Below, piece by piece: positions 27,616 through 41,354 of a stretch of 41,354 nt of DNA. Below the pieces are notes generated by a model. That model made no database searches. It saw only the letters and a program-made list of their open reading frames with translations, and was not told the DNA's origin. The stretch comes from an uncultured Clostridia bacterium (lineage in GTDB: Bacteria; Bacillota; Clostridia; TANB77; CAG-508): the NCBI GenBank assembly GCA_947629045.1, contig CANRCF010000011.1, positions 1 to 41,354 on the forward strand. The letters run 5' to 3'. The translations under genes were made by a program, and so were the position numbers. Every line of letters begins with the position of its first letter. Position 1 is the first letter of the stretch.

Positions 27616-27644
27616 TAAAATTGGAAAAAAATTCAAAATAGCAC

Positions 27645-27673
27645 TTGACATATAAAAAAAATAGATATACAAT
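27645..27673 (+). promoter_or_regulatory. consensus sigma-A promoter behind clpC
   Basis: TTGACA (27645-27650), a 17-bp spacer and TACAAT (27668-27673), 30 nt after the clpC stop. The predicted start, about 27680, coincides with the first base of a hairpin series that ends in an intrinsic terminator. Confidence 0.7.
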
Positions 27674-27679
27674 AAGTCC

Positions 27680-27765
27680 ACTTCCGTTTTTTGGAAGTTT
27701 TCATATAAAGAGTGTTTTTAAACACTCAAAAACAAAGAGCCGAGTATTATTCGGCTCTTAAATTT
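27680..27765 (+). ncRNA. candidate small RNA of three stem-loops
   Basis: Three consecutive hairpins follow the promoter: ACTTCC/GGAAGT (27680-27698, T-rich loop), GAGTGTTT/AAACACTC (27710-27727) and AAGAGCCGA/TCGGCTCTT (27735-27759) with a T-rich tail, a standard terminator. No ORF with a ribosome binding site lies inside. The promoter-to-terminator unit of about 85 nt is what a small RNA gene looks like. Alternatively the last hairpin simply terminates clpC and the first two are 3' UTR. I know no Rfam family with this shape. Confidence 0.5.
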
Positions 27766-27890: not shown

Positions 27891-28001
<111 letters not shown>

Positions 28002-28141
28002 TTTAAATAAAGAAAAGAAGCTATTTTTAAGTAAAATAGCTAATATTATAGTAGCTAAAATAAACAATATAAAAAATACAAACAACATATATAGTGAAAA
28101 AAGCATAGATAATATAAAAAATATATATAATAAATTAGTAA

Positions 28142-28183
28142 AGGATAGACTATTTTATAAAAATAAAATAGCCTGTCCTTTTT
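28142..28183 (+). terminator. strong intrinsic terminator
   Basis: AGGATAG-A-CTATTTTAT (28142-28158) pairs with ATAAAATAG-C-CTGTCCT (28163-28179) around a 4-nt loop with one internal mismatch, followed by TTTTTG. It ends the transcript of the (AC)15 locus. Confidence 0.85.
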
Positions 28184-28382
28184 GTTGCTTGTAAATGAAT
28201 AACTATTTATTTTTTATTAGTTTTTTGCAAAAAAATGCAGAAAAATTACTTTAGATTTTAATATTTTATTCTTTGAAAATATGACTTTAATTAGCAAAGC
28301 TTAAAAGAATAAAAAATATATAAAAATTATAAACAAAGTAAATTGGATTAAAATTTACAAAACTAAGGAGGAAAAAGGTAAA

Positions 28383-29765
28383 ATGAGAAAAGAGAGGGAG
28401 AATTTAAGAAAAAATTTTAAAATGCTTGAAAAAAAGCAAGAGACCACTAACAAAGGTATAACGCTAATAGCCTTAGTAGTTACTATTGTAGTGCTTTTGA
28501 TTTTGGCATCAGTAAGTATAACAGTTGTATTTGGAGATAATGGAATATTACAATTAGCAAAAGAAGCAGGAGAGAAAACAAATGAGGCAGTGCAAAATGA
28601 TAAAGAAAACATAGGAAATGCAACAAATTATATTAAATCATTAAGTTGGGATGCGTCAAAAGTAACAGCAGTAACAACAAAAGATGGAGCGATAGTTCCA
28701 GTACCAAAAGGATTTGTAGGCTCTGAAGTAGATGGAGAAAATACAATAAAAGATGGATTTGTAATATATGAAGGTGAAACTCCAGTAACAAACGAAGATG
28801 TAAGTAAAACTGAAAATAATCCAAGAGAAGAAAGAAACCAATTTGTATGGGTACCAGTAGATGGAGAAAGCTTACAGTATGCACAAGATAAAACTTCATG
28901 GTCAGATAAAACAGCTGAATATACTAATTATAAAGATTGGTGGGACGAAGAAGAAATTGATTTTAGAAAAGAAAGTGTTGCAAAATATGGAGGCTTCTAT
29001 GTAGGAAGATACGAAGCAGGAGTAGAAGGAAGTACAGAATATGATAATGAAACTGATTATAAAACTACAGCAAGTGCAGAAACAAGAAATAATACAACAG
29101 GAACCCCTGTAACTAAGAAAAATAGACAAGCATGGAATTTTGTAAGCCAAGAAAATGCAAAAATATTGTCTCAAAATATGTATGGTAATAATAAGGACTT
29201 CAATGGAATAATAGAGAGTAGATTAATAGACTCATACGCATGGGACACAATATGTACATGGTTAAGTAATAATAAAATAGATGTAATGAATAGTACATCA
29301 TGGGGAAATTATTACAATGCAAGTTATAAAATAAAAGGGCTATATGCAGAACATTCTTATGATAGCGGTTGGAATGATGCTGGAAAATATAGCAAAACTG
29401 ACGATAGCAACACTTTTCCAATTCCTGCAACTAAAAACAATAAACGTTATGAAGTAGCAACAGGAGTAACAGTAGTAGATGATAATGGAAAAGAAATAGA
29501 TAGAAATAGAACAAAGAATATATATGATTTTGCAGGAAACATGTGGGAATGGACAACGGAAATAGGAGACCATCAAACAGCAGAAACTGCACAAGTTACA
29601 GAGACAAATGAAAAATCTAAACCAACCGGAACATATGCGGTTCTTCGTGGGGGCGTCTTCCACAGCAATGGCGATGATAACCCAGCATCTTGCCGTCATG
29701 GCAATACCGCGGTTGCCGACTTCAGTGTTAGCATCTCTTTCCGTCCTGTACTTTACATAAAATAG
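28383..29765 (+). CDS. membrane-anchored variable protein with C-type-lectin/FGE fold (DGR target)
   Basis: The protein has 460 residues, and the start follows AAGGAGG. Residues ~24-52 (NKGITLIALVVTIVVLLILASVSI) are a prepilin-like leader: G then ITLIAL in the place of FTLIEL, a long hydrophobic helix, then FGDNGIL. The family usually has E at +5; here it is A. After a polar stalk, residues ~125-460 form a formylglycine-enzyme/C-type-lectin domain (FVWVPV, GGFYVGRYEAG, YDFAGNMWEWT, LRGGVF...SFRPVLYI). The last ~43 residues are encoded by GC-rich, NNY-type codons, as in variable regions of diversity-generating retroelements. The product is probably a surface-displayed ligand-binding protein. 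Confidence 0.85.
   Translation: MRKERENLRKNFKMLEKKQETTNKGITLIALVVTIVVLLILASVSITVVFGDNGILQLAKEAGEKTNEAVQNDKENIGNATNYIKSLSWDASKVTAVTTKDGAIVPVPKGFVGSEVDGENTIKDGFVIYEGETPVTNEDVSKTENNPREERNQFVWVPVDGESLQYAQDKTSWSDKTAEYTNYKDWWDEEEIDFRKESVAKYGGFYVGRYEAGVEGSTEYDNETDYKTTASAETRNNTTGTPVTKKNRQAWNFVSQENAKILSQNMYGNNKDFNGIIESRLIDSYAWDTICTWLSNNKIDVMNSTSWGNYYNASYKIKGLYAEHSYDSGWNDAGKYSKTDDSNTFPIPATKNNKRYEVATGVTVVDDNGKEIDRNRTKNIYDFAGNMWEWTTEIGDHQTAETAQVTETNEKSKPTGTYAVLRGGVFHSNGDDNPASCRHGNTAVADFSVSISFRPVLYIK
29636..29765 (+). other. putative DGR variable region
   Basis: From about 29621 the base composition jumps to roughly half G+C until the stop codon. In-frame codons from 29653 on are GTC TTC CAC AGC, AAT GGC GAT GAT, then TGC CGT CAT GGC, then ACC GCG GTT GCC GAC TTC. 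Nearly all end in C or T, as expected if AAY codons in a template repeat were randomised at adenines. They alternate with constant blocks (CCAGCATCT, and ATCTCTTTCCGTCC onward). The positions match the variable surface of the lectin fold (RGG...ISFRPV). No template repeat or reverse transcriptase is present in the window, so this would be a remote target. Confidence 0.75.
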
Positions 29766-29779
29766 TGCTAAGCACTGTT
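29761..29779 (+). promoter_or_regulatory. hairpin directly after the variable region
   Basis: AGTGC-TAA-GCACT (29764-29776) is a perfect 5-bp stem with a 3-nt loop overlapping the TAG stop. It can be extended by AAT/GTT with one wobble. DGR targets of the Bordetella phage type need a small hairpin just 3' of the variable region for efficient retrohoming; this one is placed accordingly. It has no T-run, so it is a poor terminator. Confidence 0.6.
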
Positions 29780-29810
29780 AACGGTCGAATTGGCCTATCT
29801 AGAAGCGTTT

Positions 29811-41269: not shown

Positions 41270-41326
41270 ATGAAAACTAAAAACGCTTGTGGCTCTAGAG
41301 AGAGAGAGAGAGAGACTGTCCGTTGA
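41270..41326 (+). CDS. small ORF with (AG)9 tract, possibly phase-variable, window edge
   Basis: ATG 41270 is preceded by AAAGAGGAAAACAG, a good ribosome binding site. It reads MKTKNACGS, then Arg-Glu pairs from the (AG)9 tract, then TVR and stop at 41326 (18 residues). Losing one AG would switch it into a frame (DCPLNRKNNK...) that stays open to the window end at 41354. The layout (K-rich start, A-G-S or A-C-G-S, dinucleotide tract, one long and two short continuations) matches the (AC)15 ORF at 27891. Function is unknown; coding status is uncertain. Confidence 0.45.
   Translation: MKTKNACGSRERERETVR
41297..41314 (+). repeat. (AG)9 dinucleotide microsatellite
   Basis: Eighteen uninterrupted bases of AG inside the 41270 ORF, followed by ACTGTCC. 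Each unit gained or lost changes the downstream reading frame. Confidence 0.93.
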
Positions 41327-41354
41327 ATAGAAAAAATAATAAATCAAAATATAT

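Follow-up and report, generated by a model that had tools for sequence, protein, structure and literature searches.

Does the 3' end of a surface-protein gene in this 41,354-nt stretch of DNA (the window) belong to a diversity-generating retroelement (DGR), and if so, is it diversified from elsewhere in the genome? The original prediction described it as an orphan DGR variable region (VR) served in trans, citing an abrupt jump in G+C and a run of codons ending in C or T, and this compositional observation is confirmed. Of the last 43 codons of the gene, 35 end in C or T compared to 160/417 in the body (the NNY codon signature), with third-base C, as well as C/T, in excess among the VR codons. 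The G+C island over the VR is the only one of its size in the window, and stretches that match the VR in G+C richness occur solely within positions 29589-29777. The gene (Table 1) is immediately preceded by a Shine-Dalgarno-like AAGGAGG and its product has a prepilin-like N-terminus (GITLIALVVTIVVLLILA from residue 25), with a weak match to the PF07963 N_methyl model (E 0.039, family-model search). In the same type of search the FGE-sulfatase model, itself a weak model, matches 7/12 paralogs, and the nearest solved fold to the C-terminus is TaqVP, which fills the top rows (E 0.05-0.2) of a Foldseek search without a match below E 0.001. Judged by its relatives and the weak model, the C-terminus may be FGE/lectin-like. 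The whole window has no Rfam match above the gathering score.

Table 1. Positions in the window of the target gene, its variable region and 3' end, and the associated leaders
Feature	Position	Strand	Description
Surface-protein gene	28383..29765	+	460 aa: prepilin-like N-terminus, long middle, C-terminal FGE/C-type-lectin-like domain (tentative) with VR
Leader, small ORF, target and acceptor element segment	27760..29810	+	Without counterpart in the close relative G008; boundaries approximate
DGR VR	29638..29753	+	Ungapped alignment to the C17 template (L010 6595-6480, minus strand)
CTTTA at the VR 3' end	29751..29755	+	Acceptor form, IMH/IMH*-like difference
26-nt element TAGCACTGAnCACTGnTAnCnGTCGA	29763..29788	+	Begins at the stop codon; common to VRs beside DGR cassettes
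Small hairpin AGTGC-TAA-GCACT	29764..29776	+	Overlaps the stop codon; from sequence, energy unexceptional
Leader ORF	27891..28001	+	(CA)15 at 27930-27959; stop after 36 aa as assembled
Small ORF, end DRLFYKNKIACPFCCL	27919..28194	+	Between the (CA) leader and the target gene
Second leader module, ATG..GCTTGTGGCTCT(AG)9	41270..41354	+	Cut by contig end; tract 41297-41314

The genome to which the window belongs (G000; 1.36 Mb in 34 contigs, 94% complete) contains a complete DGR cassette on contig C17, which rules out a genome without any DGR. A family search of the whole genome identified one reverse transcriptase (RT) over threshold, located in this cassette (L010 9411-6480, minus strand), which has the order target (431 aa), Avd, RT and template. 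The RT is of the DGR type, with a match to PF00078 (E 2.8e-18) and the motifs LGNLTSQ and YMDD, which we take to be DGR-like, and its best NCBIfam model is a group II RT, under its cut-off. The Avd matches bAvd PF22296 above the cut-off (E 1.2e-15) and NF033474 under the cut-off of 80 (65.7 bits, E 3.8e-18). The template and its cognate VR differ nearly solely at template adenines, with changes at 17/31 A sites and 1/85 non-A sites (Fisher 4e-11). The ORFs around the cassette resemble ribosomal proteins, NusG and SecE (named by eye), and therefore give no sign of a prophage. The finding set beforehand as counting against a DGR, a genome with neither a near-repeat of the VR nor a DGR RT, did not occur, and the term 'orphan' describes the locus and not the genome.

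By alignment, the window VR is homologous to the C17 template but out of register with it. A DNA search of the whole genome matched the two at 71% identity (E 1.8e-9), and the near-copy that had been expected to differ only at adenines exists, yet 21/85 non-A sites differ in addition to 14/31 A sites (Fisher 0.03, uncorrected). Among the non-A differences are changes of an entire codon (e.g., GGG to TCT), and six of the 21 lie within 18 nt of the VR 3' end, one of them the usual CTC/CTT difference. Taken alone, the A-site bias of the window VR is weak and not significant after correction. Nine of the 31 family ORFs, including the cassette's own, fall below 0.05 uncorrected for A bias, 22/31 are without nominal A bias, and a clearer bias than that of the window occurs in the same genome for L014 (13/31 vs 9/85, p 4e-4) and L015 (20/31 vs 27/85, p 0.002). 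Of the 15 distinct templates recovered (16 in total, including some of other genera), that of C17 is the closest to the window VR at non-A sites (20/77 differing, the next 27/77), such that none of the distinct templates fits better, and a DNA search of G000 up to E 10 returned no second template. Third-base identity to the C17 target does not increase in the VR (0.66 vs 0.62 in the body, p 0.38), giving no support at the window for homogenisation of the VR by recent retrohoming; L014 alone of 14 paralogs passes this test nominally (p 0.013, uncorrected). Across the 14 paralogs, similarity to the window gene in the VR shows no positive correlation with similarity in the body (Spearman -0.40), but the discordance is non-significant (p 0.16), so independent movement of the VR remains unproven.

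As read from the sequence, the strongest link between the window and C17 is the 26-nt element that both share from the stop codon. Efficient homing in the phage BPP-1 needs a 24-bp sequence just 3' of the VR (PMC3240598), and the window resembles the Bordetella BPP-1 acceptor described there in having a short element in this position that overlaps the stop codon (the one required in BPP-1), along with an IMH/IMH*-like difference; compared with BPP-1, the candidate element of the window is conserved more in sequence than as a strong hairpin. The window element matches that of C17 at 21/26 positions, while the next best site in the window reaches 16/26. A 16-nt core is exact at two sites in the 1.36 Mb genome, C17 and the window, with no further match at 1-2 mismatches and 3-mismatch matches at the level of the reversed control, a test that is post hoc because the pattern was derived from these two elements themselves. 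A looser 15-nt form, likewise taken from the elements, occurs at three places in 30 genus genomes, all of them VR flanks (reversed-pattern control 0). A scan of 730,553 bases, taken with overlaps from the surroundings of RTs and targets, returned matches of at least 19/26 at the stop codons of VRs and nowhere else. These VRs are C17, the window, L031/L050 (one and the same sequence), L032, L033, L051, L052, L053 and L054. The element is absent from the other remote paralogs in the G000 loci examined. The 16-nt core has two exact matches in viral contigs, and a protein search identified no relatives in viral contigs. At the end of the VR itself, 12/16 template/VR pairs have CTC on the template side and CTT on the VR side, and the CTTTA end is not specific to the window gene, being common to 11 other family members. 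The hairpin at the stop codon, to which the original prediction had drawn attention, is present, but the conserved 26-nt sequence around it carries more weight; the hairpin was rejected as the main evidence, as the folding energy of VR ends is ordinary in 9/9 VRs tested (z 0.3 to -1.5).

The two flanks of the window locus are 96-97% identical to a close relative, G008, in which the clpC-like and cation-efflux-like flank genes (named by eye) lie 203 nt apart with no target between them. The locus would thus represent either a recent gain or a loss in the other lineage. The C17 cassette is absent from the syntenic site in G008, where its flanks are 1.3 kb apart compared to 3.95 kb in G000, and the best RT match in G008 is 36% identical to the C17 RT. 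A different DGR occurs in G008 (L112, on that genome's own contig C17), with a template/VR pair that has 18 A and 0 non-A changes and a pilin-like target; a (CA)12 leader lies 340 nt upstream of this target. In the cassette-less G008, L108 keeps the C17 signature (18/31 A vs 18/85 non-A, p 2e-4) and is the best of seven G008 ORFs tested; of the rest, two give a weak signal (L107, p 0.04; L111, p 0.02) and four give none. Of the 36 RT loci scanned (L057 and L060 were dropped as low-complexity), 16 yielded template/VR pairs, which carry 9-19 A changes and 0-2 non-A changes per 80 nt; the non-A range is bounded by design, since up to 4 non-A changes per 80 nt were accepted. DGRs of this kind are therefore active in the relatives. 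RT matches at E<=0.001, not every one a DGR RT, occur in 27/38 genomes, G000 included, and matches to the pilin-like family occur in 30/30 genus genomes, with 2 to 76 per genome. The C17 RT has named relatives in MAGs that carry the labels uncultured Clostridia, Bacilli or Clostridium sp., and the host of the window is thus probably a member of the Clostridia; isolate labels such as Lapin suggest that the RT relatives come from animal guts. Upstream of the locus, a short segment (27620-27760) in which TTGACA/TATACAAT resembles a promoter and a hairpin resembles a terminator (both by eye) is inverted in G008 at 75% identity, and it may encode a small RNA or be invertible.

The features of positions 29638-29788 would be accounted for if this stretch comprised a VR with its 3' acceptor element, both from the DGR lineage to which the C17 cassette belongs, and if mutagenic retrohoming from an ancestor of the C17 template had written the VR onto a prepilin-anchored, lectin-fold surface protein. 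Template and VR would have drifted apart afterwards, leaving the window VR as a dormant or rarely used remote acceptor. This is the explanation we consider probable. The region is a genuine DGR acceptor with the cassette of its lineage present in trans, and it is probably dormant; placement of the VR by retrohoming rather than by ordinary recombination and a later lapse of writing are inferred. In two reports, the sign of an active remote target is agreement with the template at non-A sites (PMC10907252; PMC3521204), and because 21/85 of these sites differ, compared to 1/85 in the cassette's own VR, the window VR is not an active C17 target by this measure. Of the predicted service in trans, the DGR-type VR and the presence of an RT and template elsewhere in the genome stand, and current service is partly contradicted. 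If the C17 cassette still served the window VR in trans, an acceptor-form 3' end and downstream element would be expected, and the window has both (CTTTA; 21/26); trans diversification has also been inferred in other systems (PMC10907252). However, six of the non-A mismatches lie in the last 18 nt, near the start of cDNA synthesis in BPP-1, and recent retrohoming should have restored the template letters upstream of that start, which makes continued service quite unlikely.

The mismatches, and in particular the whole-codon changes, could instead reflect a sister DGR cassette that wrote the window VR and whose template is missing from the assembly, either lost or in the missing ~6% of a genome recovered in 34 contigs. 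DGR content changes fast, as G008 illustrates with its different DGR and empty C17 site, but the single RT over threshold, the failure to recover a second template and the 14 other distinct templates, which fit no better, all make a sister cassette unlikely. Conversely, the VR could have no DGR ancestry and the gene could be an ordinary C-type-lectin paralog with an odd composition and a fast-evolving binding surface. The lack of nominal A bias in 22/31 family ORFs would agree with this, as would the VR protein of L006/L007, which is identical to its G008 counterpart L106, such that part of the family is frozen. Such a paralog would leave unexplained the ungapped template match, the restriction of the G+C island to the VR and an element that elsewhere occurs solely at DGR VRs, and we regard it as very improbable. 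A drifted acceptor of the C17 lineage remains the preferred reading.

That reading has counterparts in known systems. The remote variable proteins of cyanobacteria (PMC7517822) are, like the product of the window gene, target paralogs whose genes lie distant from the cassette and carry the VR at the 3' end, and are defined by at least 50% nucleotide identity of the VR to that of the cassette target; the window VR, also at a gene 3' end, is 62% identical to the C17 target VR. Unlike the cyanobacterial system, the window has a small genome, probably a Clostridia host, a prepilin-like anchor, drifted non-A sites and upstream dinucleotide tracts. The trans/silent DGR loci of Thiohalocapsa PB-PSB1 (PMC10907252) likewise are without parts of their own machinery, and one is undiversified, but those proposed as trans-diversified match the template perfectly at non-A sites, whereas the window VR does not. 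DGR-diversified tip pilins of Bacteroides (Macadangdang et al. 2024, cited in PMC12632263) also place a DGR on pilus-linked surface proteins; these are type V pilins of Bacteroidota (PMC12632263), while the window family has class-III prepilin-like N-termini. Remote DGR targets are invisible to surveys of metagenome contigs (PMC8144416). In this regard G000 offers a cassette, one VR in register and a graded series of diverged VRs, and the short acceptor element may predict which remote gene belongs to a DGR.

The pilin-like family is also characterized by dinucleotide tracts in its leaders. In the window leader, (CA)15 follows the ATG such that the number of units would set the frame of a predicted translation, and in the n+1 frame the leader runs into a small ORF ending in IACPFCCL; CPFCCL-type ends recur in L005, L009, L014 and L025, which make up one family subset. 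With a start and ribosome-binding site of its own, the target need not depend on the tract for expression. The G008 site syntenic to the second leader module leads into another target gene, L107. A (CA)5+ or (AG)6+ tract lies upstream of 21/31 pilin-like ORFs of the G000 loci (within 700 nt, or as far as the locus extends), and 22 (AG) and 10 (CA) arrays of at least eight units were counted where base composition predicts ~0.0009 eight-unit tracts in the genome. Many tracts sit shortly 3' of an ATG, most with a good Shine-Dalgarno. Tract-bearing leaders precede many family members, with two in the window and others in the sets L003-L028 and L106-L119. The leader sequence itself is found in 2/30 genus genomes at up to 2 mismatches, but pilin-like ORFs are also preceded by dinucleotide tracts in L052, L081, L082, L083, L084 and L095.

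Thirty-one leaders were translated, 17 of the 36 G000 tracts and 14 from G008, with 19 G000 tracts excluded because a contig end truncated the leader on either side or no pilin-like ORF lay downstream. Reading in one of the three frames connects 24 leaders to the pilin-like ORF and six, including that of the window, to a CPFCCL small ORF; L112 reaches neither. As assembled, 3/31 are open (L018, L026 and L106) and 28/31 are shut (out of frame), though shut leaders are not necessarily silent, with internal ATGs downstream and, in a few (e.g., L114), a second ATG that opens another frame. In a single syntenic pair of sister genes, L006/L106, AG11 in G000 corresponds to AG13 in G008 and the leader changes from shut to open. 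The tracts suggest an on/off switch operated by slippage. Simple-sequence-repeat contingency loci similarly have short frame-switching repeats near the start of a reading frame; here the tracts lie in leader ORFs of a DGR-related paralog family, and switching is predicted from sequence.

Comparison of syntenic sites indicates that the family copies recombine. L005 and L108 share both flanks and differ in their C-termini, L003 and L111 share the upstream flank and differ in their C-termini, and different leader types occupy the same place in L026/L110 and L023/L119. Combined, these features could constitute layered antigenic variation in a minimal genome, a proposal offered tentatively and with some doubt. 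A prepilin-anchored, lectin-fold family of ~30 copies would have its VRs written by the DGR in cis and, over evolutionary time, in trans via a portable 3' acceptor; most copies would be held OFF by leader tracts and turned ON by slippage, with sequence and expression varied separately and recombination reshuffling leaders and C-termini. A literature search (titles and starts of abstracts) returned, among the matches listed, no description of a DGR combined with repeat-tract phase variation, and contingency loci are named as a contrast to DGRs in PMC3521204. A family that joins DGR relatives with likely repeat-tract switches is more unusual than the probably dormant acceptor itself, and with both in one surface-protein family the interplay of hypermutation and on/off expression becomes testable.

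The leader module occurs at the right end of the window (41270-41354) and at or near ends of G000 contigs C1, C3, C4, C10, C16, C18, C23, C27, C28 and C32. Because contigs end at or near this repeated module, the assembly breaks at the family and its copy number may be underestimated. Similar leader tracts precede other genes at L067, L068 and L069 (C5), L070 (C6) and L074 (C32) of G000, which by eye encode three long related membrane-segment proteins, small proteins with an amidase-like ORF close by, and a glycosyltransferase-like ORF, and these suggest a wider set of switchable genes.
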